Positions 54,294 through 63,981 of a DNA stretch of 64,000 nucleotides are shown piece by piece (the first letter of the stretch is position 1; each line of letters begins with the position of its first letter). The notes beneath the pieces are model-generated. The model saw nothing but the letters and a program-made list of their open reading frames with translations. It was not told where the DNA came from and searched no databases. Position numbers and translations under genes: made by a program. The DNA is taken from contig JAQTZZ010000004.1 in NCBI GenBank assembly GCA_028687545.1, forward strand, positions 1 to 64,000, in the 5' to 3' direction. The DNA is from Candidatus Wallbacteria bacterium. Lineage in GTDB: Bacteria > Muiribacteriota > JAQTZZ01.

Positions 54294-54336
54294 TGCCTTG
54301 TATAATGTCCATAAAAAGGATATTAATGGGGGCAAT

Positions 54337-55716
54337 ATGTACAGAAAAGCTTTGGAATATCTGCTGGAATGGAAGAAGCGCGGGAGCAGGAAACCGCTCG
54401 TGATCAGAGGTGCCAGGCAGGTGGGGAAGACCTACCTGGTGCGCGAACTGGGGAAAAAGTTCGCCAGTATCCTGGAAATCAATTTTGACAGGAATCCGGA
54501 AAAGGCTGAACTCTTTGCATCAAGGGACGCGGCCAAGATCGTTAGGCTCCTGGAAGTGGATGCAAACGCAGAGGTCATTCCAGGTAAAACGCTGATTTTT
54601 CTCGATGAGATTCAGGCTGTGCCTGATCTGCTGCCTGTTTTACGGTACTTCCATGAGGAACTCCCTGAAATCCATCTGATAGCCGCAGGCTCATTGCTGG
54701 ATTTCGTGCTGTCTGACCATGATTTCCCGATGCCTGTCGGCAGGGTGGAATACCTGCATCTGGGTCCGCTGGATTTCGAGGAATTTCTGGCTGCCGTAGG
54801 TGAAGCCAGGCTGCTGGAATTTTTGCGTAACTATTCGCCTATTGAATCGATGCCTGCCCCTTTTCACGGCAAACTGCTTCAGCTGCTGAGGGATTTTTTT
54901 ATCGTGGGAGGCATGCCGTCAGGCATCAGGGCTTATCTTGATTCCGGAAAGATCACGGAAGCCAACAGGGAGCAGCAATCGATAATCCAGACCTTTGAGG
55001 ATGATTTCGGAAAATACTGCAGGCGCTGCGATCCGATTCTGCTGAGAAAGACCTTCCGCATGCTGCCAGCCCTGCTCGGTTGCAAGGTCAAATATTCGCG
55101 CATCGATCCCGGAGCAAAGGCCAAAGCAGTTTCAGACTGCATTCATCTGCTGGAGCTGGCGCGGATAGTCTTCAGGGTCAGCCACAGTTCGGGAAACGGC
55201 ATCCCGCTCGGCGCTGAAGCAGACAGCAGGGATTTCAAGCTGCTTTTTCTGGACATCGGCCTTGCAGTCAGCATGCTTGGCTTGAATTCCAGGGTTCTCA
55301 CAGGAAGCGAAAGCATCATGCTGATCAACAGCGGCGCAATTGCTGAGCAGTTCGTCGGACAACACCTCGCTTATTCAGGGGAAGCTTATGAAACTCCAGG
55401 GCTTCATTACTGGAACCGCGAGAAAAAAAGCTCTTCCGCGGAAGTGGATTTTCTGATCCAATCCGGGAACAAAGTGGTGCCTGTGGAAGTCAAGGCCGGC
55501 AAAACAGGCTCCCTGCGGTCTCTGCAGGTTTTCCTCCATGAGAAAAAAGCGGATTTCGCGGTCCGCTTCAATACTGACTTTCCCTCTACAGGTGAGTTCC
55601 GGACTTCGATCCCAGGCGCTGAACAGAGGTGTTACCGGCTCCTGTCACTGCCTCTTTACCTGATCTGCCAGGCGCAGAGGCTGATAGAGCGCGAGAATGC
55701 CACAGCCACTACCTGA
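54337..55716 (+). CDS. AAA ATPase with C-terminal DUF4143 nuclease-like domain
   Basis: About 459 residues from ATG 54337. The N-terminal AAA_14 domain has Walker A GARQVGKT (25-32) and Walker B TLIFLDEIQAVPD, followed by AAGSLLDFVL and GRVEYLHLGPLDFEEFL. The C-terminal DUF4143 part has a PD-(D/E)xK-like run (HYWNREKKSSSAEVDFLI, VVPVEVKAGKTGSLRS). These proteins are common, mobile and often sit with toxin-antitoxin genes; their function is not established. It has its own promoter and marks the start of the accessory island. Confidence 0.85.
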   Translation: MYRKALEYLLEWKKRGSRKPLVIRGARQVGKTYLVRELGKKFASILEINFDRNPEKAELFASRDAAKIVRLLEVDANAEVIPGKTLIFLDEIQAVPDLLPVLRYFHEELPEIHLIAAGSLLDFVLSDHDFPMPVGRVEYLHLGPLDFEEFLAAVGEARLLEFLRNYSPIESMPAPFHGKLLQLLRDFFIVGGMPSGIRAYLDSGKITEANREQQSIIQTFEDDFGKYCRRCDPILLRKTFRMLPALLGCKVKYSRIDPGAKAKAVSDCIHLLELARIVFRVSHSSGNGIPLGAEADSRDFKLLFLDIGLAVSMLGLNSRVLTGSESIMLINSGAIAEQFVGQHLAYSGEAYETPGLHYWNREKKSSSAEVDFLIQSGNKVVPVEVKAGKTGSLRSLQVFLHEKKADFAVRFNTDFPSTGEFRTSIPGAEQRCYRLLSLPLYLICQAQRLIERENATATT

Positions 55717-55810
55717 CCTCATTGTACATGCTTGTTGAGATGAAAATTCTGTATAAAAATGATAAAATTCAGATATTGATGATCTTTATCGAATGCAAAA
55801 GGAGCTGTTA

Positions 55811-56092
55811 GTGAGACTTAGTCCTGATGAAATCAGAGCGATCAAGGAAAGCGTAGCAGAAGCAGATCCGAAAGCCGTGATCTATCTGTACGGGTCCCGC
55901 TCCGACGACGGCAAGCGGGGCGGAGATATCGACCTGATGGTGCTTTCCGATAAAATAGACAGGCGGGCCAGGCGGAAGATAAAGCTCAAGATCTATGATC
56001 GAATTGGGGAACAGAAGATTGATCTTCTGGTGACCGCAGATCCTGTTACACCGCTTGAGAAAATTGCGTTCAACCAGGGGGTGCGGCTTTGA
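55811..56092 (+). CDS. MntA-like nucleotidyltransferase, probable antitoxin
   Basis: About 93 residues from GTG 55811, preceded by AAAGGAG with good spacing; an ATG at 55793 is in frame but has no such site. The minimal nucleotidyltransferase motif GSRSDDGKRGGDID (G28-S29, D39, D41) is clear, followed by DLLVTADPVTPLEKIAFNQG. MntA-type proteins neutralise the paired HEPN toxin by adding AMP to its tyrosine. It overlaps the next gene by 4 bp with a TTG start, typical of a MNT/HEPN pair. Confidence 0.85.
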   Translation: MRLSPDEIRAIKESVAEADPKAVIYLYGSRSDDGKRGGDIDLMVLSDKIDRRARRKIKLKIYDRIGEQKIDLLVTADPVTPLEKIAFNQGVRL

Positions 56093-56541
56093 CGCAGAAG
56101 GAATACAGGGAGTATCTGCTGCATGTCTTGAAAAAACTGAACGAGTCAACCGGATGGCTGCAGAGGTCTTATGACAAATGCCTGGAGCATGATTTATCGG
56201 CAGACCTGAGCGAAGATCAGTTTGACGATTTCGAGAATCTTACCAGCAGATTCGCGAGGACCAGCGACATCCTGATGCAGAAAGCTTTCCGCGCCCTGGA
56301 TGAGGCTGAATTCGAAGGCGGCGGAACCATGATCGACACCTTCAACAGAGCCCACAAGCGCGGATTGATCGATTCCGTGGAATTCATGCGCGATCTCAGG
56401 GAACTGAGAAATGAAATCAGCCATGATTATAACGTAGAGGACTTGAAGCAGCTTTTCCGCGATGTGCTGGAGCAGACGCCTCTGATTTTACAGGTGATTG
56501 AAAGAATCAGGAAATACGCGGAAAAATTCAATGAGGAATAA
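56089..56541 (+). CDS. HepT-like HEPN ribonuclease, probable toxin
   Basis: A 150-residue, all-helical protein with the HEPN active-site pattern R-x4-H-x-Y at R107, H112 and Y114 (RNEISHDY). The tyrosine is the one AMP-modified by MntA partners. Start is TTG, overlapping the antitoxin stop (TTGA), which would keep toxin translation below that of the antitoxin. The HI0074-type substrate-binding-domain label also fits. With the partner at 55811 it forms a probable type VII toxin-antitoxin module. Confidence 0.85.
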   Translation: MTQKEYREYLLHVLKKLNESTGWLQRSYDKCLEHDLSADLSEDQFDDFENLTSRFARTSDILMQKAFRALDEAEFEGGGTMIDTFNRAHKRGLIDSVEFMRDLRELRNEISHDYNVEDLKQLFRDVLEQTPLILQVIERIRKYAEKFNEE

Positions 56542-56584
56542 AATACAACCGCAACCTGCTCCCATGGGTCGAGCACCGGATAGC

Positions 56585-56613
56585 ATGACTCACGTGGTAA
56601 AATGAGTTATAAT
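56585..56613 (+). promoter_or_regulatory. Possible promoter for the orphan antitoxin gene
   Basis: ATGACT (56585-56590) and a perfect TATAAT (56608-56613) are 17 bases apart. The transcript would begin about 17 bases before the ATG at 56637, with AGGAGG between. Confidence 0.45.
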
Positions 56614-56636
56614 CTATAAATAAAGCAGGAGGAATC

Positions 56637-56957
56637 ATGCCGGTTGCCATTAAGCTCGAATTCAATCAGTTGCGGGATTTGATCATGCAGTTGAATGAAG
56701 ATGAATTGGAACAATTGACTGAGCAGATACGCAAAATGCAGAAAAATATGGCGAAAAAGCGTGAAAATTCTCCCAAGTTTAAATCACTGAAAATTAAAAC
56801 CGGAAATTTCAAATTCAATCGGGAAGAAGCTAATGAGAGAAAAGCTAGAGCCGAAAAAAACCATCCTGAACAGGACATGATTTCAAGATTAATCCAAAAA
56901 CCACTTAAAAAACCCGGTTTTGTCCCAATGAACAGGGATGAAATTTATGGGAAATAA
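56637..56957 (+). CDS. Small antitoxin-like protein next to a broken PIN toxin
   Basis: A 106-residue protein with a strong AGGAGG ribosome-binding site. The N-terminal half (KLEFNQLRDLIMQLNEDELE) is amphipathic and helical; the C-terminal half is basic and ends RDEIYGK. The sequence alone does not place it in a named family. It is called antitoxin-like because a remnant of a VapC-type PIN toxin follows directly, and the last codons overlap an ATG (56947) that may have been the toxin start. If so, the antitoxin now stands without its partner. Confidence 0.5.
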   Translation: MPVAIKLEFNQLRDLIMQLNEDELEQLTEQIRKMQKNMAKKRENSPKFKSLKIKTGNFKFNREEANERKARAEKNHPEQDMISRLIQKPLKKPGFVPMNRDEIYGK

Positions 56958-57047
56958 ATTTGCGGTTGCAGCATTTTATACACTGAAGACATGCAGGATG
57001 GGCAGATTATCGAAAAAAAGCTGAAGATTGTGAATCCGTTTAAATAA
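56958..57047 (+). pseudogene. C-terminal remnant of a VapC-type PIN-domain toxin
   Basis: The frame ending at TAA 57045-57047 encodes SILYTEDMQDGQIIE followed by KLKIVNPFK, the conserved end of PIN (PilT) toxins with the last acidic residues of the active site. Upstream in this frame is a stop at 56955, so the first ~100 residues are missing. A short out-of-frame ATG at 56947 (MGNKFAV) may be the original start, leaving a large internal deletion. Confidence 0.75.
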
Positions 57048-57072
57048 TGGGAGAAATCGTGCAGGAGGCTAA

Positions 57073-57378
57073 ATGAAGAATCTGGAAAAAGTGATTCGCG
57101 GGCTGGTCAGACCCCTGGTAGTGACCGGCGCGTTCAAGGACGAAAGTTCAGCTGTGAAAGAAATGGTGATGATGTTGATAGAAAAAAAACTGGCGTCGTT
57201 TCGTGAAGTGATTGAAAAAAATACCGGGAAATACGGTGAATTCACAAAGTTCTCAGCCGACATCCAAAACCGCGCCACTATTGATGACGAAGATATCTGG
57301 ATGGAATGGAAAAGCGCGATCGAGATGAATCGAGCCTGGGAAGAAGCCAGGCGTGATCTGATCAGGTGCAATGCATAA
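57073..57378 (+). CDS. Conserved-looking small protein, possible antitoxin
   Basis: A 101-residue protein with a good AGGAGG ribosome-binding site. It opens with KNLEKVIRGLVRPLVVTGAF and carries FKDESSAVKEMVMMLIEKKL, a RHH-like sequence in feel, then a helical end with DDEDIWMEWKSAIEM. I recall similar proteins next to small toxins but cannot name the family. An overlapping 22-codon frame (57371-57439), starting on its stop codon, may be what remains of a partner gene. Confidence 0.5.
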   Translation: MKNLEKVIRGLVRPLVVTGAFKDESSAVKEMVMMLIEKKLASFREVIEKNTGKYGEFTKFSADIQNRATIDDEDIWMEWKSAIEMNRAWEEARRDLIRCNA

Positions 57379-57435
57379 TTTTTTTGATAAACTTCTTTCC
57401 ATACTGGAGGGAATTAAGGTGACATTGGAGCGAAC

Positions 57436-57762
57436 TTGACTGACTGGATTGAATTGATCAGAGATTGTTTTGCTGAAGACAGAGTATTATACAGCAGTCA
57501 TGCTTTATCTGAAATGAAAAACGAGGAATTTGGCTGCATCACTGACAAGGAGATTGAAGAATCAATAGGCAATGGCAGGATCATTGAGTTGTACCCAGCG
57601 GATGAACCGTATCCAAGTTGTCTGATATATGGGAAAACAGGTTGCGACAGGCCGATTCACGCTGTATGCGCCGTTTCCGAAAAAGAGCACTTGTGCATCA
57701 TAGTGACTGCTTATCAGCCGGACCCGGAGCGGTGGGAGCAGTTTGAAAGGAGAAAGCCATGA
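57436..57762 (+). CDS. DUF4258-like protein, probable toxin of a YgiT-type pair
   Basis: A 108-residue protein starting at TTG 57436 behind a GGAG site. The pattern LYSSHALSEM, IGNGRIIELYPADEPYPSCL and IHAVCAVSEKEHLCIIVTAYQPDPERW is that of DUF4258, which folds like RelE/MqsR-type ribonucleases. The gene overlaps the YgiT-type zinc-finger gene by 4 bp (ATGA), the usual order for DUF4258/YgiT toxin-antitoxin pairs. Confidence 0.8.
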   Translation: MTDWIELIRDCFAEDRVLYSSHALSEMKNEEFGCITDKEIEESIGNGRIIELYPADEPYPSCLIYGKTGCDRPIHAVCAVSEKEHLCIIVTAYQPDPERWEQFERRKP

Positions 57763-57995
57763 ATTGTGTGGTATGCAAAAACCCGGAAATCAACATGAAA
57801 AAGGTGGATGAAGAGATCAGAACCGGCAAGGATATTGTTCTTCTTTCACTTGATGTTCTGGTTTGCGATCATTGCGGCGAAAGATATTATGATCGTGCGA
57901 CTGTCAGAAAAATCGAGGAAGTCAGGAACAGACTGTCTTCAAATAAATTGAAGTGTGAAGTGGAAGGTCGGGTGCTGAGGGCTAAGGTTGCATAA
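57759..57995 (+). CDS. YgiT-type zinc-finger protein, probable antitoxin
   Basis: A 78-residue protein with two CxxC pairs (C3/C6 and C36/C39 in LVCDHCGERYYD), the zinc-binding N-terminal part of MqsA/YgiT. The C-terminal helix-turn-helix of full-length MqsA is absent, so it probably neutralises the DUF4258 partner without a full DNA-binding domain. It is translationally coupled to that gene. Confidence 0.82.
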   Translation: MNCVVCKNPEINMKKVDEEIRTGKDIVLLSLDVLVCDHCGERYYDRATVRKIEEVRNRLSSNKLKCEVEGRVLRAKVA

Positions 57996-58007
57996 TTCCG
58001 CAAATAG

Positions 58008-58034
58008 GAACTGGTGGAAAAATTCCACCGGTTC
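58008..58034. terminator. Hairpin after the YgiT gene, no clear U-tract
   Basis: A 12-bp stem with one G-T pair (GAACTGGTGGAA / TTCCACCGGTTC) and a 3-base loop starts 12 bases after the YgiT stop. The bases after it are A-rich rather than T-rich, so termination is possible but not certain. Confidence 0.4.
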
Positions 58035-58053
58035 AAAAAATTAAAACACTTCG

Positions 58054-58088
58054 GCAGTTTTGAAATTCAAGCACACGATCAAGAAGAA
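58054..58088 (+). repeat. Direct repeat copy 1 flanking the truncated dehydrogenase
   Basis: Thirty-five bases match 58373-58407 at 29 positions by eye. Both copies can be read as a peptide of the form LKFKxTIKKK, and several differences are synonymous in that frame. No start codon precedes copy 1. Confidence 0.6.
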
Positions 58089-58178
58089 AAACAGTAAAAT
58101 TGAAAGATGCTCTATGGAGACACTTGCAAAACTTGATTTCAGGTATAAAATGATTTTGCAAGCTAACCCGATGCATGA

Positions 58179-58255
58179 GTTTTGTTAGTGCTCCAAGAGC
58201 CCCTAACAAAACATCACCCCGGTTATAGCAACAAAAATATTTTGTAAGGGGCTCT
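58179..58255 (+). promoter_or_regulatory. Structured leader with two competing hairpins over a ribosome-binding site
   Basis: Segment B (58196-58211) can pair with segment A (58179-58193) through a perfect 10-bp arm (GTTTTGTTAG / CTAACAAAAC) plus an inner GCTC/GAGC stem. It can also pair with segment C (58240-58255) over 16 positions with one mismatch. C contains the AAGGGG ribosome-binding site and ends at the base before the ATG at 58256. The two structures exclude each other, as in translation-controlling leaders. A further 9-bp inverted repeat lies at 58123-58131/58154-58162. Confidence 0.5.
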
Positions 58256-58411
58256 ATGTATAAACTTGGAGTGATCGGAAGCGGTTATGTCGGGCTCGTC
58301 ACAGCCGCCTGCTTCGCGGATGTGGGCAATACAGTGTTCTGCGTAGACATTGACGAGAGGAAGAGCAATTTTGCGGGTTTGAAATTTAAACCCACAATCA
58401 AGAAGAAGTAA
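58256..58411 (+). pseudogene. Truncated UDP-glucose 6-dehydrogenase N-terminus
   Basis: ATG 58256 opens a 51-codon frame. The first ~36 residues ([20 protein letters not shown], then the CVDIDERK end of the second strand) are the canonical Rossmann N-terminus of UDP-glucose/GDP-mannose dehydrogenases. Homology stops there and the frame continues into direct repeat copy 2 ([12 protein letters not shown]) and a stop. About nine tenths of the enzyme is missing. It cannot bind UDP-sugar or oxidise it; the junction marks the edge of the AT-rich cassette that follows. Confidence 0.85.
58373..58407 (+). repeat. Direct repeat copy 2, fused to the truncated dehydrogenase
   Basis: Matches 58054-58088 at 29 of 35 positions by eye. 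It lies at the 3' end of the truncated dehydrogenase frame and just before the acylation cassette, so it may mark a recombination junction. Confidence 0.6.
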
Positions 58412-58431
58412 AAAAGAAACAAAAAAGAAAT

Positions 58432-60078
58432 ATGAGTGATACACTGGAAAATAAAATAATTCATTCGGGTCAGTATAATATCGGGTACATTTGCAGCCGT
58501 TTGCAGTGTGAACAGGGACTAAGAGACAAGACTGCCATGAAATGGATTTCACCATCCATGGAGATGAGAGAGATTTCTTTTGGGGAATTGGAGATCGAGA
58601 GCAACCGTTTTGCCAATGCTCTAAACTCGTTGAATGTAGTTTCGGGCGAAAGGGTATTTATTTTCTTACCCAAAGTTCCTGAATTATTTTTTTCATTCCT
58701 CGGAATTCTAAAAAAGCGTGCAGTTGCAGGAACACTGTTTCCTAATTTTGGTGAGGACGCCTTAAAGGACCGGCTCTTTGACAGCGAGGCATCGATTTTG
58801 ATTACGAAAAAGAGCCAGCTTAAGAAAATTGAAAAGATCTGGAAAATGTTGCCTACTTTGAGAACAATAATCCTTGTCGATGCAAACAGCCATGTTTCGG
58901 ATACTGTTTTGAGTTACAAGTTGTTGACCGGCTCGGAAAAAAATGACTTTAATATTGAGATGACTGGTCCTGATACTCCTTCAGTTATGCACTATACATC
59001 CGGTTCCACAGGTAAACCAAAAGGAGTGATTCACGTTCATAAGAGTATACTTTCTCAGCATTTTACGACAAAATCAATTTTACAGTTAGAACCCGATGAT
59101 ATTTTTTGGTGTACTGCAGACCAGGGCTGGGTTACAGGGACATCATATGGAATAATCGGACCATGGAGCTGCGGAATTACCCAAATCCATTATGGTGGAG
59201 CATACAGCCCTGAAATCTGGATGAAGATAATTGAACAATTCAAAGTTAGTGTATGGTATACGGCACCTACTGCTTTAAGGATGTTAAAAAGAGAACCTGA
59301 CGATCTGTTTTATGGATTCAACTTTTCAGAATTGAGAAGTATCTTCAGTGTTGGAGAGCCTCTTAACCCGGAGGTTTTTCTCTGGGGAAAGCGTGTTTTT
59401 AAAAAAGATATTTATGACACCTGGTTTCAAACCGAGACAGGAAGCATCATGGTTTCTAATCGTCCGGGTTTGATTGCCAAACCTGGATCTATGGGGAAAC
59501 CAGTTGAAGGTATTGATGCCAGAGTTTTATCTGATGAAGGAGTTGAATGCCTTATCGGCAGTAAAGGTAACCTTTGCATGAAGCCTGGATGGTCATCAAT
59601 GTTTGCTGGATATAACAAAGCGGACGAAGTTTATCAGAACAAATTCAAGAACGGATTCTATTTTTCAGGAGACCTGGCTCATATTGATGAGGAAGGATAT
59701 TTCTGGTTCAGCAGCCGCTCAGATGACGTAATCAACACTGCCGGACATCTGATCAGCCCATTTGAAGTGGAAAGTGCATTGTTGGAAATTCCTGATGTGG
59801 CAGACACCGCAGTGATCGGAGCTCCGGATGATCTGCTCTGGGAAAAAGTAGTTGCCTATCTGGTGCTGAAACCTGGAATTGAATGGAATAACGAACTGGA
59901 ATTAAAGATCCGTCTGCATGTTTCCAATCGAGTTTCATCAATTGCTACGCCTCAGGACATTAAAATTATCAGCAAAATACCTAAAAATAAAAGCGGAAAA
60001 ATCATGCGGAGAGTCCTTAAATCCATGTATCTTGGTAATGATCTCGGTGATCTCTCCACAATGGAGGACGAGGCATGA
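58432..60078 (+). CDS. AcsA-like acyl-AMP ligase (acetyl-CoA synthetase family)
   Basis: A 548-residue ANL-superfamily enzyme: AMP-binding TSGSTGKPKG (189-198), ADQGWVTGTSYGI, DTWFQTETG (329-337), GYFWFSSRSDDVINTAGHLI and the A10 catalytic lysine K523 in PKNKSGKIMRR. The C-terminus ends LGDLSTMEDEA, as in AcsA-type acetyl-CoA synthetases. These normally make acetyl-CoA from acetate. Here the stop overlaps an acyl carrier protein start by 4 bp, so transfer to the carrier's phosphopantetheine is a plausible alternative. The region is clearly AT-richer than the glycan locus, a sign of transfer. Confidence 0.88.
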   Translation: MSDTLENKIIHSGQYNIGYICSRLQCEQGLRDKTAMKWISPSMEMREISFGELEIESNRFANALNSLNVVSGERVFIFLPKVPELFFSFLGILKKRAVAGTLFPNFGEDALKDRLFDSEASILITKKSQLKKIEKIWKMLPTLRTIILVDANSHVSDTVLSYKLLTGSEKNDFNIEMTGPDTPSVMHYTSGSTGKPKGVIHVHKSILSQHFTTKSILQLEPDDIFWCTADQGWVTGTSYGIIGPWSCGITQIHYGGAYSPEIWMKIIEQFKVSVWYTAPTALRMLKREPDDLFYGFNFSELRSIFSVGEPLNPEVFLWGKRVFKKDIYDTWFQTETGSIMVSNRPGLIAKPGSMGKPVEGIDARVLSDEGVECLIGSKGNLCMKPGWSSMFAGYNKADEVYQNKFKNGFYFSGDLAHIDEEGYFWFSSRSDDVINTAGHLISPFEVESALLEIPDVADTAVIGAPDDLLWEKVVAYLVLKPGIEWNNELELKIRLHVSNRVSSIATPQDIKIISKIPKNKSGKIMRRVLKSMYLGNDLGDLSTMEDEA

Positions 60079-60320
60079 ATGTTGCAGAAAAACTGAATGA
60101 TGTTTTCAGACAAGTATTTGACAATGAAGAAATCGTAATTTCACCTGTTATGACTGCAAATGATGTGGACGGCTGGGATTCACTCTCGCATGTCAACCTT
60201 ATTTTAGCTATAGAAACAGCATTCAGGATCAGTTTTACCCAGCGTGAATTATTAACTTTTAGGAATGTCGGGGATTTGATTTCTTCGATTGAGAAGAAAA
60301 TCGTGAAGCAAAGCAACTAA
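60075..60320 (+). CDS. Acyl carrier protein
   Basis: An 81-residue carrier with the phosphopantetheine site GWDSLSHVNLI (Ser36) and the helical ACP pattern ending RNVGDLISSIEKKI. Length and the acidic-hydrophobic pattern fit an ACP or a DltC-like carrier. It overlaps the ligase by 4 bp and the MBOAT gene by one base, so three proteins are made together. It is presumably charged by the ligase and read by the MBOAT protein. It is not in a fatty-acid gene context. Confidence 0.9.
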   Translation: MNVAEKLNDVFRQVFDNEEIVISPVMTANDVDGWDSLSHVNLILAIETAFRISFTQRELLTFRNVGDLISSIEKKIVKQSN

Positions 60321-61777
60321 TGGCTTTTCAATCTTTTGGTTTTGCCGGATTTTTATCGATACTGGTTTTACTTTATTCCATAACATCTAAGAAGAATCGA
60401 TGGTTGTTACTTCTCTCATTCAGCCTGATTTTTTATGCTTCTCTTCTATCTTTATGGTTGATGTTCTCACTGACATTTGTAACGCTGATTTCCTTTGCAT
60501 TTGGAAAACTATTGCATAGATACCAAGATCATAAATATCAGACGAGTTTGCTCTGGCTCGGCATTTTTCTAGCTTTATTGCCATTGATACTGTCCCGATA
60601 TTCTTTATTAATTGCTTCTTCTTGCAACCGCATTTTTAGTCTATTCAACAGCAGTATGATCTTTTCAACGACTAGTACAATCGCCTCCATTGGAATTTCT
60701 TTTTTTGTTTTTCAAGCGATCGGATACTTGATAGATGTTTATTTAGCTAAAATACTTCCTGAATACAACCTAGGAATATTCTTTTTGTTTATCTGTTTCT
60801 TTCCGAAGATTCTGCAGGGACCAATTGAACGCGCAGATAAACTTATACCACAGTTAAAGCAGTGGAGCGATTTTAATTACGATAATTTACGACTAGGTGT
60901 GATGCAATTTACTAACGGGTTATTCAAAAAAATAGTGGTTGCCGATACACTGGCTTTGCCTGTAAACATGGTCTTCGCTGATGTTGGAAAATTTACCGGA
61001 CTTCCACTTCTACTTGGGATTATTATGTATGCTTGGCAAATTTACTTTGATTTTTCTGGTTATACAGATATGGCTATGGGTGTAGCGAAAATGTTCAACA
61101 TTGATCTGACAAACAACTTCAACTCACCCTATGCAGCTAAAAACATTGCTGAATTCTGGAGGAGATGGCATATTTCTTTTTCGCAATGGATTCTGGATTA
61201 TATTTTCAAACCTTTGCAGATGACATTTAGAAAATATGGCAACTTGGGGAATGCGCTGGCTTTAATGATCACCTTTGTAGTTTGTGGAATCTGGCACGGA
61301 CCCACGTTAGGGTTCTTTATCTGGGGGTGCTTGCATGGAATTTATATGGCCACATCAGTTCTCTTTCAGCCATTGAGTAAAAAACTTAATAAACGATACA
61401 GATTTGAGAATTCACGTACAGTTAGTTTTTTTTCAATGTTATTGACTTTTTCTATGGTTTGTTTTGCCTGGATTTTTTTCCGAGCTGCCAACATTCAAGA
61501 CGCGTTCTACATAGTGAAAAATATTTGTAAAATTGATCCAGGATTGTCCATAAATACGATTCTCGCAAACATGGCATGGGGTAAAAAGGCTTCAGCAGCA
61601 GCGGCGGTAACAGTTGCAGTCTATTTTCTTCCTCTGTTTAAAGATTTCACTCGCAATAAGGTTGCTTTCTTTTCTCATGGCTTTTATCGACGCTGGTTTG
61701 TTTACTATTCGATGGCAATGTGCATATTGCTTTTGGGGCGGTGGGGAGAGTCTCAGTTTATTTATTTTAGATTCTGA
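60320..61777 (+). CDS. MBOAT-family O-acyltransferase (DltB/AlgI/PatA-like)
   Basis: A 485-residue polytopic membrane protein with MBOAT signatures: FPKILQGPIERADKLIPQL, IYFDFSGYTDMAMGVAKMF, EFWRRWHISFSQWILDYIF and the invariant catalytic histidine H326 in GIWHGPTLGFF, with a second histidine in CLHGIYM. AlgI, PatA and DltB move acyl groups across the membrane to extracellular glycans. The preceding ACP makes DltB-like use of a carrier thioester likely. A gap of 5 bp separates it from the SGNH gene. Confidence 0.92.
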   Translation: MAFQSFGFAGFLSILVLLYSITSKKNRWLLLLSFSLIFYASLLSLWLMFSLTFVTLISFAFGKLLHRYQDHKYQTSLLWLGIFLALLPLILSRYSLLIASSCNRIFSLFNSSMIFSTTSTIASIGISFFVFQAIGYLIDVYLAKILPEYNLGIFFLFICFFPKILQGPIERADKLIPQLKQWSDFNYDNLRLGVMQFTNGLFKKIVVADTLALPVNMVFADVGKFTGLPLLLGIIMYAWQIYFDFSGYTDMAMGVAKMFNIDLTNNFNSPYAAKNIAEFWRRWHISFSQWILDYIFKPLQMTFRKYGNLGNALALMITFVVCGIWHGPTLGFFIWGCLHGIYMATSVLFQPLSKKLNKRYRFENSRTVSFFSMLLTFSMVCFAWIFFRAANIQDAFYIVKNICKIDPGLSINTILANMAWGKKASAAAAVTVAVYFLPLFKDFTRNKVAFFSHGFYRRWFVYYSMAMCILLLGRWGESQFIYFRF

Positions 61778-61782
61778 AAAAA

Positions 61783-62853
61783 ATGAAAAAATTCTTTTTA
61801 AAGTTTTTTTTATTACTGCCATTGTCTGTCATCATTATTGGTACAAATTATTATACTGACCCTGCTAATCTATTTAGTAATTCCAAAATTGAAAACAAGA
61901 TATCCAAACTGATCATTGCTCATAAAAATTTTTCAGGTATAGATAGTTTCGATGAAAGAATCATGCAAAAAAATATAATTAATTCATTCGAAGAATCGCC
62001 TAAAATCATCTCACTTGGTTCAAGCAGAATTATGCAAATAGAGTCGAACCTTTTTAGCGACAATACTTTTTTCAATCATTTTGTTTCAGGGGCTTCACTT
62101 GAGGATTTTATTGCAATCATGGGAATGTATTTTGATAAAGGTATAAAACCTGAGATTGTTATCATAGGGCTGGATCCATGGTTACTAAATAAAAATAATG
62201 GCCAAACAAGATGGATTTCTTTAAAAGAAGAATATAACAATGGACTTTTAAGATTGGGAGGTAAAGCCAAATTTACATTTAATTTTCCTGGATGGAACAA
62301 ATGGAGCCAACTGATTTCATTAGCCTATTTTCAAGAGTCTTTTACATATTTAATTAAAAGAAAGAAGAAGATGCTGGAAACTACTGATAAGCCTAATGAG
62401 ACATCTTCAGTCATTCGTTTCGATGGATCAAGAGGACTATCGAAAATTGAAAGAGAACGAACCTCAGAAGAAGTAAGCAAGATGGCTAATGAATATGCTT
62501 CTGAGGAGCCTGTATATTCGTTAGGAGATTTTAATGAGTTGGATCAAGAACTAAAAACAAATTTTAATTTATTTATCCTTTTTCTGGTTGGGCAAAATGT
62601 AAAACCAATCTTTGTACTAGCGCCATATCATCCAAAAGCTTACAAAAAAATAATTAAAAAATATGCTGTTGTGGCTGAAGCGGAGGCATTTTATAAAAAA
62701 TATGCTTTTGATAATGGCATTGACTTGGTTGGTTCATATAATCCTGACATTTCAAATACCGATTGTTCCCTTTTTTATGATGGGATGCACCTTAAAGTTG
62801 ATTTTTACCGAACAATTTTACCCGATTTGATCTTGAAAAATTTAAAAAAGTAG
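61783..62853 (+). CDS. Membrane-anchored SGNH-like protein (DltD/AlgJ-like partner)
   Basis: A 356-residue protein with one N-terminal helix (about 5-21) and an extracytoplasmic domain. Block I reads SLGSSRIMQI (GSSR, residues 79-82) and the catalytic pair is D333/H336 in YDGMHL, giving a Ser-Asp-His triad of the SGNH type. MBOAT partners such as AlgJ, AlgX, PatB and DltD share this plan and complete acyl transfer onto the glycan. It is the last gene of the AT-rich cassette. The acceptor is unknown. Confidence 0.78.
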   Translation: MKKFFLKFFLLLPLSVIIIGTNYYTDPANLFSNSKIENKISKLIIAHKNFSGIDSFDERIMQKNIINSFEESPKIISLGSSRIMQIESNLFSDNTFFNHFVSGASLEDFIAIMGMYFDKGIKPEIVIIGLDPWLLNKNNGQTRWISLKEEYNNGLLRLGGKAKFTFNFPGWNKWSQLISLAYFQESFTYLIKRKKKMLETTDKPNETSSVIRFDGSRGLSKIERERTSEEVSKMANEYASEEPVYSLGDFNELDQELKTNFNLFILFLVGQNVKPIFVLAPYHPKAYKKIIKKYAVVAEAEAFYKKYAFDNGIDLVGSYNPDISNTDCSLFYDGMHLKVDFYRTILPDLILKNLKK

Positions 62854-62952
62854 AGAGCCTCTTAAGAGCACATCATGTAAATACTTGACCGGATAATTAT
62901 CAAGATATATACTCAACGCTAAGGTTTGTGTATGTAAATCAATTCCCCTCGC

Positions 62953-63981
62953 ATGCAGCAAAAAAATGTTTGGAGGATTTCGCTGAAATTAAAGAATCTA
63001 AGAATTTTAGTTACAGGCTCTGACGGCTTTATCGGCAGCCATCTAGTGGAAGCTCTTTTGGAGAAAGGTGCCAAAGTCCGGGCATTTGTGTATTACAATT
63101 CTTTCAACTCCTGGGGATGGCTGGATACATTTTCCAGGAAAAAACTTGATCAGATAGAGATCTTTGCCGGGGACGTGAGGGACCCGAATGGAGTGAGAGA
63201 AGCCATGAAGGGCTGTGATGTTGTTTTTCATCTTGCAGCCCTGATCGGGATCCCATTTTCCTATCATTCTCCTGATTCCTATGTGGACACTAACATTAAA
63301 GGCACTCTCAATGTGCTGCAGGCTGCCCGGGATCTCAGCACTAAAAGAATCCTTGTAACTTCCACATCTGAAGTATATGGCACAGCCCAATACGTGCCGA
63401 TCGATGAAAAGCATCCTTATCAAGGGCAATCCCCGTATTCAGCCAGCAAGATCGGAGCAGATCGGATGGCTGAGTCCTTTTACCGCTCCTTTGATCTGCC
63501 TGTGACTATAGTCAGGCCTTTCAACACTTATGGTCCCAGACAGTCAGCCAGGGCAGTCATACCTACGATCATTACTCAGTTACTCAATGGATATAAAAAG
63601 ATTAAACTGGGTGCTTTACACCCGACCAGGGATCTGACTTTTGTCAAAGATACCTGCAGGGGATTCATCGCGATTGCAGAATCAGATAAGACTGTCGGGA
63701 AAGAGATTAATATTGCCGGCAATTCAGAAATATCTATTGGCGAACTGGCCAAGAAATTAATCAGTATGATAAACCCTAAGGCAAAAATCGTCAGTGATCA
63801 GGCAAGGTTGAGACCAGGAAAAAGCGAAGTGGAGCGATTGTGCGGAGATAATACCCTGATCAGGAAATTGACAGGCTGGAAGCCTGAGTATTCGCTGGAT
63901 AAGGGGTTTTCTGAGACAATCGAATGGTTAAGGGACCCGAAAAATCTGCAGGGCTATAAAGCAGGGATTTACAATGTCTGA
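62953..63981 (+). CDS. legB: LegB-type NAD-dependent 4,6-dehydratase
   Basis: A 342-residue extended SDR: RILVTGSDGFIGSHLVEALL, FHLAALIGIPFSYHSPDSYV, STSEVYGTAQYVPI, catalytic YSASK, and VRPFNTYGPRQSARAVIPTI, LGALHPTRDLTFVKDT. These long matches are typical of LegB, which starts legionaminic acid synthesis by 4,6-dehydration of a GlcNAc nucleotide. The frame opens at ATG 62953 without a ribosome-binding site, whereas GGAGG (62972-62976) precedes an in-frame CTG at 62983; the true start may be that CTG. Base composition returns to that of the glycan locus. Confidence 0.88.
   Translation: MQQKNVWRISLKLKNLRILVTGSDGFIGSHLVEALLEKGAKVRAFVYYNSFNSWGWLDTFSRKKLDQIEIFAGDVRDPNGVREAMKGCDVVFHLAALIGIPFSYHSPDSYVDTNIKGTLNVLQAARDLSTKRILVTSTSEVYGTAQYVPIDEKHPYQGQSPYSASKIGADRMAESFYRSFDLPVTIVRPFNTYGPRQSARAVIPTIITQLLNGYKKIKLGALHPTRDLTFVKDTCRGFIAIAESDKTVGKEINIAGNSEISIGELAKKLISMINPKAKIVSDQARLRPGKSEVERLCGDNTLIRKLTGWKPEYSLDKGFSETIEWLRDPKNLQGYKAGIYNV

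Follow-up and report, generated by a model that had tools for sequence, protein, structure and literature searches.

Four coupled genes and their protein families

In the 64,000-nucleotide stretch of contig JAQTZZ010000004.1 of Candidatus Wallbacteria bacterium analyzed here (the window), positions 58432-62853 hold four plus-strand genes that make up a candidate acylation cassette. The first gene (58432-60078, 548 aa; Pfam AMP-binding and AMP-binding_C) encodes an AMP-forming ligase resembling acetyl-coenzyme A (CoA) synthetase (Acs), which we propose to be an acyl:carrier-protein ligase. It is followed by genes for an 81-aa acyl carrier protein (ACP) with a predicted phosphopantetheine site at S36 (60075-60320; Pfam PP-binding), a 485-aa MBOAT acyltransferase with a predicted DltB-like fold, H284, H326 and a C-terminal FIYFRF motif (60320-61777; Pfam MBOAT), and a 356-aa SGNH protein resembling DltD and PatB, with an N-terminal helix at residues 2-25 (61783-62853; Pfam DUF1574). 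An earlier note, made from the DNA letters alone, had described these genes as tightly coupled, and the open reading frames (ORFs) bear this out: the ligase and carrier genes overlap by 4 bases, the carrier and MBOAT genes by 1 base, and a gap of 5 bases separates the MBOAT and SGNH genes. The Pfam assignments also agree with it. The residues that it had singled out, S36, H326 and the GSSR and D-x-x-H motifs of the SGNH protein, were found at the places given and are conserved in relatives, as is H284.

G79, S81 (of GSSR) and P281 of the SGNH protein are invariant and D333 and H336 (of D-x-x-H) are present in at least 90% of 25 aligned sequences, while H326 and the tail tyrosine Y482 (of FIYFRF) are invariant in 38 aligned MBOATs. 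The matching C-terminal tyrosine of PatA is described as the acceptor of the acetyl group (PMC12148441).

We compared each protein with family models and, for the two acyltransferase components, predicted structures. The PP-binding match of the carrier (E 6e-4, 20.4 bits) lies just below its cut-off of 20.8; eight general ACP models match it, all far under their cut-offs, and none named DltC was found at E 1e-3 in a library that presumably contains a DltC model. The only NCBIfam match of the MBOAT is the DltB model TIGR04091, at 181.5 bits versus a cut-off of 375. Its predicted structure (mean predicted local distance difference test score, pLDDT, 88.2) is closest in fold to DltB (Z 28.9, root-mean-square deviation (rmsd) 3.1, 378 residues aligned), with the next kind of MBOAT at Z 22.8. 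The SGNH model (pLDDT 88.5) shows the N-terminal helix and an SGNH fold, and DltD ranks first by Foldseek E-value; against DltD structure 7dxm it gives Z 13.7, rmsd 5.0 and 246 aligned residues, and a designed scaffold leads at Z 14.1. We treated structure matches whose Z scores differ by under about 1 as ties. DltD is therefore level with other SGNH proteins here, and we do not claim the window protein as a DltD.

The best family model for the ligase is PRK04319, acetate--CoA ligase, at 663.4 bits, under the equivalog cut-off of 729. The DltA model TIGR01734 gives 33.5 bits versus a cut-off of 559.85, and judged by these sequence scores the ligase belongs to the Acs branch, not to DltA. This result bears on whether the cassette might be a true Dlt system acquired from Gram-positive bacteria and moving D-alanine. 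The four-step logic is shared, the folds match, and dlt operons of Erwinia, Bordetella and Photorhabdus are cited in PMC7269400; the part of the review PMC11279074 that we consulted contains nothing on Gram-negative dlt. However, both the DltA and DltB models score far under their cut-offs, the ligase is of the Acs branch, and DltX (PF12459) has no match at E values up to 0.1 in the window's genome, which is 97% complete. We regard acquisition of a true Dlt system as very improbable.

Ligase-carrier pairs in other genomes and the CoA-contact residue

Among 39 genomes of the phylum, 11, counting that of the window, contain a ligase match with an E value of 1e-60 or lower. One of the ten besides the window's (G004, locus L021) has the ligase, carrier, MBOAT and SGNH genes in the same order in a glycan locus, with a ligase 56% identical to that of the window; in the loci fetched for the remaining 9 genomes, no carrier was found beside the ligase. 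In a broader sample, a ligase match with an E value of 1e-120 or lower was found in 29 of 381 genomes, and among those 29 the only one outside the phylum in which a carrier adjoins the ligase is a Geobacter (G346, locus L084), where all four genes occur in order near gmd- and fcl-like genes (assigned by eye). The window, L021 and L084 copies, known before the patterned scan was run, provided its ligase seeds. The scan covered one genome per species and returned 70 loci, from which 66 close ligase relatives in 65 loci were counted. This number includes the seed copies of G004 and G346, one piece of a split ligase (L142) and two partial ligases (L161 and L149); five distant ligases (L158, L160, L162, L164 and L165) were kept outside it. 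The scan pattern IYDTWFQ required F at one position, and further relatives may therefore be missed.

In 55 of the 66, the next gene downstream encodes a carrier. The MBOAT gene directly follows the carrier in 29, is found on the same strand within about 3.2 kb in 34, and occurs anywhere in the fetched locus in 46; with the five distant ligases counted, the figures are 55/71 for the carrier and 47/71 for the MBOAT. An SGNH-like neighbor was detected in 24 of the 34 loci having an MBOAT within about 3.2 kb (17 by profile, of which 11 had themselves gone into the profile, and 7 by no more than a loose motif), and 2 of the 10 loci without one are at contig ends. By record title, the taxa include Geobacter, Geomonas, other Desulfuromonadales, Verrucomicrobia, Bacteroidetes, Elusimicrobia, Holophagaceae, Victivallales, Omnitrophica, Chloroflexi, Myxococcales and Oligoflexia, the majority being metagenome bins. 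Scans of viral contigs with the MBOAT and the ligase yielded no confirmed relative. The gene order thus recurs elsewhere, as the check proposed in the earlier note had asked, and the ligase-carrier cassette is a widespread clade in many phyla rather than a rarity of this genome. The note had also called the combination unusual. No description of a carrier, MBOAT, SGNH and Acs-like ligase set was found in the literature searched, in which subscription journals and preprints were little covered, but the combination is not confined to this genome.

Several loci depart from the four-gene arrangement. In a Chloroflexi bin (L143:1872-5405), a NanE epimerase gene and an ORF that by eye resembles a ROK kinase come after the ligase-carrier pair, in place of an MBOAT. 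A hexapeptide-repeat transferase gene lies directly 3' of the pair at L130:6202-6894 and L151:3370-3927, where an MBOAT was not found. The genome of the window itself carries a second carrier-MBOAT-SGNH set with no adjoining ligase (L094:5781-8429, contig G000:C1), which might be served by the window ligase. At L010:6203-9133 (G002:C51), a carrier gene 49% identical in product to that of the window diverges from an MBOAT-SGNH pair, again with no ligase.

Arrangements of this kind raise the question of whether the ligase and carrier are a general acyl-carrier supply for several acyltransferases, the MBOAT among them, the acceptor in some loci being an intracellular nucleotide-sugar amine. MBOAT-less pairs beside hexapeptide transferases (L130 and L151), a glycosyltransferase (L136) and NanE (L143) favor this view, as does the second carrier-MBOAT set lacking its own ligase. 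Against it, 46 of the 66 ligase genes do have an MBOAT in their fetched locus, and in the window the MBOAT is coupled to its carrier gene by overlap. We consider a general supply rather unlikely, though it would be compatible with a dedicated acylation pathway at the window locus.

To examine the ligase itself, we mapped its residues onto Salmonella enterica Acs through an alignment of Protein Data Bank (PDB) structures. The acyl-pocket residues V310, T311 and V386 of Acs are kept and W414 is replaced by F332; K609 is kept as K523, R526 is replaced by L440 and R584 by S498, and R191 lies opposite a gap. In Acs, R191 and R584 are reported to contact the CoA phosphates, R584 the 3'-phosphate, while R526 touches the adenylate phosphate and W414 determines the acyl range (PMC10455477). 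The earlier note had proposed a comparison of pocket residues, and W414 is the one that differs. Two of the other differences were rejected as marks of carrier use: the R526 to L change is common to standalone sister ligases, and the loop bearing R191 also seems to be missing from the short AcsA 9g79, which aligns to the window ligase without it. In two other genomes of the phylum (L026 and L027), acetyl-CoA-synthetase relatives keep both W414 and R526, and no carrier gene was found adjoining them.

The R584 place, which is absent from every scan pattern, showed a consistent difference. A residue table of 106 rows contains 56 carrier-adjacent rows, representing 54 genes (L145/L011 and L140/L059 are doubled), with L015 entered as two fragments; the R584 place is non-basic in all 56 (S 37, A 11, T 6, L 1, G 1). 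A ligase tree was built from 102 of the 106 rows, after removal of two copies and, for length, L123_257 and L015_181. In this quick tree, which has several long branches, all 53 carrier-adjacent rows fall in a single clade of 68 rows with SH-aLRT support of 99. Within the clade no row has a basic residue at the R584 place (S 42, A 14, T 6, N 4, L 1, G 1), whereas 33 of the 34 rows outside it do (R 31, K 2; one A). The tree suggests that loss of the basic residue was probably one ancestral event inherited by the clade, not many.

These findings also bear on the possibility of an ordinary short-chain acyl-CoA synthetase that makes acetyl- or propionyl-CoA, with the MBOAT using this CoA thioester as PatA does and the carrier being incidental. 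PRK04319 is the best family model, V310, T311, V386 and K609 are kept, and the donor of PatA is described as acetyl-CoA (PMC12148441). In addition, R584 variants of S. enterica Acs (Reger et al., quoted in PMC10455477) were just 2-fold down in catalysis, with the Km for CoA raised 7- to 8-fold. Against this stand the PRK04319 score below cut-off, the non-basic residue at a CoA-phosphate position throughout the clade, a carrier as the next gene downstream in 55 of 66 cases, and an MBOAT segment that varies with carrier linkage, as described below. Variants of a methanogen Acs at the matching residue have a kcat reported as 34- to 680-fold lower (PMC10455477). Taken together, an ordinary acyl-CoA synthetase appears improbable, and a ligase that serves the carrier is the likelier reading.

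The putative carrier-docking segment of the MBOAT

In DltB, residues M302, V305, I306 and M309 of helix HC are reported to bind DltC (PMC11035591). The stretch of the window MBOAT that aligns to this DltC-binding site is FKPLQMTFRKYG, which starts within a predicted helix spanning residues 285-302. Many other MBOATs have an LGG segment at the matching place. In a survey of PF03062 comprising 30 loci returned out of a longer list, with flanks of about 1 to 1.5 kb, LGG was found in 26 of 27 readable MBOATs and a carrier in none of the 30 flanks; three of the 30 were unreadable, three with SLGG had been missed by the script's count, and one had neither.

We then scored 98 MBOATs, defined as ORFs of at least 400 aa with a readable FW-RW-H motif, with LKG or MGG also scored as LGG and many flanks again of about 1 to 1.5 kb. 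None of the 44 MBOATs that have a carrier gene no more than 1.5 kb away contains LGG, nor does any of the 12 located elsewhere in ligase loci; it is present in 35 of 42 with neither carrier nor ligase in view. The same division was observed in the window's phylum alone, where LGG occurs in 12 of the 12 MBOATs searched that have neither gene in view and in none of the 4 with a carrier (the window, L094, L010 and L145). On the MBOAT tree the LGG label changes 8 times, and at least 5 of these changes are forced by starred branches. Since non-LGG forms stand at several places in the tree among LGG forms, the link with a carrier seems to have arisen more than once. Thus, the carrier-site segment of the MBOAT seems to have changed repeatedly together with carrier linkage, a pattern of sequence change that fits use of a carrier.

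Proposed pathway, genomic setting and relation to known systems

In the reading that we consider likely, the four products acylate a surface glycan through an MBOAT and an SGNH protein fed by a carrier, a system that combines features of Dlt and PatAB with an Acs put to new use. The ligase would adenylate a small carboxylate (acid + ATP to acyl-AMP) and load the acyl group not on CoA but on the phosphopantetheine arm of its own carrier. The acyl-carrier would dock on the cytoplasmic helix of the MBOAT, and H326 would transfer the acyl group to Y482 in the protein's own FIYFRF tail. By analogy with PatA and DltB, an acyl tyrosine in this tail would make a DltX unnecessary. The SGNH protein would then take the acyl group onto S81 and deliver it to a glycan hydroxyl, with the neighboring legionaminic-acid glycan perhaps being the acceptor, to judge from gene context. 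The Dlt-like chain of Acs-like ligase, private carrier, MBOAT and SGNH protein put forward in the earlier note is supported by the recurrence of the gene order, the loss of the CoA-contact residue and the change at the MBOAT carrier site. Its further proposal, a surface glycan as the acceptor, is suggested by gene context.

The acyl group is probably small. In an engineered Acs, W414F on an N521V background raised the Km for acetate and improved the use of formate (PMC8511477), making it plausible, by analogy, that the window pocket accepts a small acid other than acetate. Acetate is possible, not favored above propionate, glycolate, lactate or formate, and by itself it would hardly explain why a private carrier exists. 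The acetyl-type group of the earlier note is one candidate among several. More tentatively, and with slightly less than even confidence, we suggest that the cassettes represent a widespread, hitherto unrecognized third class of MBOAT-SGNH acylation, in which an Acs lineage abandoned CoA and turned into an acyl:carrier ligase, MBOATs several times independently swapped LGG for a carrier-docking helix, and acyl groups for which no useful pool of CoA thioester exists (such as lactyl, glycolyl or formyl, in preference to acetyl) are put on surface glycans in many phyla.

A number of observations weigh against carrier-dependent acylation by this cassette. No MBOAT is present in the fetched locus for 20 of the 66 ligase genes, and 7 ligase genes lack both carrier and MBOAT even with enough downstream sequence to hold them. 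The five distant ligases are all without a carrier, although four of them lie inside the tree clade, and ACP-MBOAT-SGNH sets occur without an adjoining ligase in the same genome (L094) and in G002. The effect of R584 loss is disputed, as the methanogen and S. enterica variants indicate, and a single ancestral change inherited by the clade means that the ligase rows are not independent. F332 was rejected as independent proof; the scan pattern demanded F at this position and its count is biased. As for the MBOAT, seven proteins of the non-LGG type, of which six are from Geobacterales, show neither a carrier nor a ligase in the sequence around them; widened stretches of six of the seven contained no carrier, and the seventh is on a 3-kb contig. 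The two groups of MBOATs also differ in origin: 32 of the 44 with a carrier were taken from ligase loci, and the LGG forms stem from other searches. The helix at the DltC-site equivalent comes from a model of the window MBOAT alone.

The cassette is an AT-rich block, as the earlier note had remarked, with G+C of 33-42% per kb in 58001-63000 versus 43-54% in the remaining kilobases of the window. It is sandwiched between the truncated gene noted there, a 51-aa N-terminal remnant of a UDP-glucose/GDP-mannose dehydrogenase (58256-58411, + strand; UDPG_MGDP_dh_N), and a legionaminic-acid-type operon, whose first gene encodes the 4,6-dehydratase LegB (62953-63981, + strand). Beyond the window end, this operon continues with genes for LegC, a 3-hydroxybutyryl-CoA dehydrogenase, NeuD-, NeuB- and NeuC-like proteins, a nucleotidyltransferase and a PseF-like cytidylyltransferase. 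The dehydrogenase gene (L097:5169-6020, contig G000:C4; PRK05808, 433 bits, above the cut-off of 408) sits between the LegC-like and NeuD-like genes and may be the source of a 3-hydroxybutyryl group for the sugar. Farther upstream of the cassette are a GDP-mannose dehydratase, an NDP-sugar dehydrogenase and an epimerase that by eye resembles GDP-fucose synthase. Elsewhere in the genome, a gene of the phosphopantetheinyl transferase family is a candidate for arming the carrier.

Small genes of mobile or toxin-antitoxin type occupy 54298-57995, ahead of the cassette. They include an AAA_14/DUF4143 ATPase, a DUF4258 gene with a YgiT-type zinc-finger gene, and an ORF that by eye resembles a nucleotidyltransferase, with a HepT-like partner. 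By eye, similar stretches lie on either side of the dehydrogenase stump (about 58060-58099 and 58379-58413), and these are possibly traces of past recombination.

Among known systems, the cassette most resembles the Dlt pathway of teichoic-acid D-alanylation (DltA-DltC-DltB-DltD-DltX) in its sequence of ligase, dedicated carrier, MBOAT and SGNH protein, and in the predicted structures, where the MBOAT is nearest DltB, DltD stands at or near the top for the SGNH protein, and a helix is predicted at the DltC site. It differs from Dlt in having an Acs-branch ligase, in carrying the putative acyl tyrosine in the MBOAT's own tail with no DltX found, and in its location in a locus for a legionaminic-acid-type sugar. 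With PatA-PatB and AlgI-AlgJ it shares an MBOAT with a fused C-terminal tyrosine hexapeptide and an SGNH partner (PMC12148441); in contrast to these, it includes a carrier and a ligase, and its MBOAT is without the LGG segment. The ligase is homologous to short AcsA (PRK04319; PDB 9g79) over its whole length, including the adenylation motifs and all but one residue of the acyl pocket, and differs in the W414 to F and R584 to S changes and in the adjoining carrier gene. Genes for an AMP ligase and a carrier also occur in the glycan loci of exosortase A (TIGR03098). That ligase belongs to another branch, however, and the window ligase scores 163 bits versus a cut-off of 592 with its model.

A 2025 paper on PatAB separates Dlt, which uses a carrier, from the other MBOAT-SGNH pathways, which use acyl-CoA and have no carrier (PMC12148441), and the cassettes described here would cross that line. 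They combine a PatA-type tail, a Dlt-type carrier and an Acs-type ligase, and would exemplify a switch of CoA ligases and MBOATs to carrier proteins. Carrier use by an MBOAT would then become predictable from its sequence, according to whether LGG is present, and the cassettes point to a surface modification to be sought in cultured Geomonas and Geobacter.

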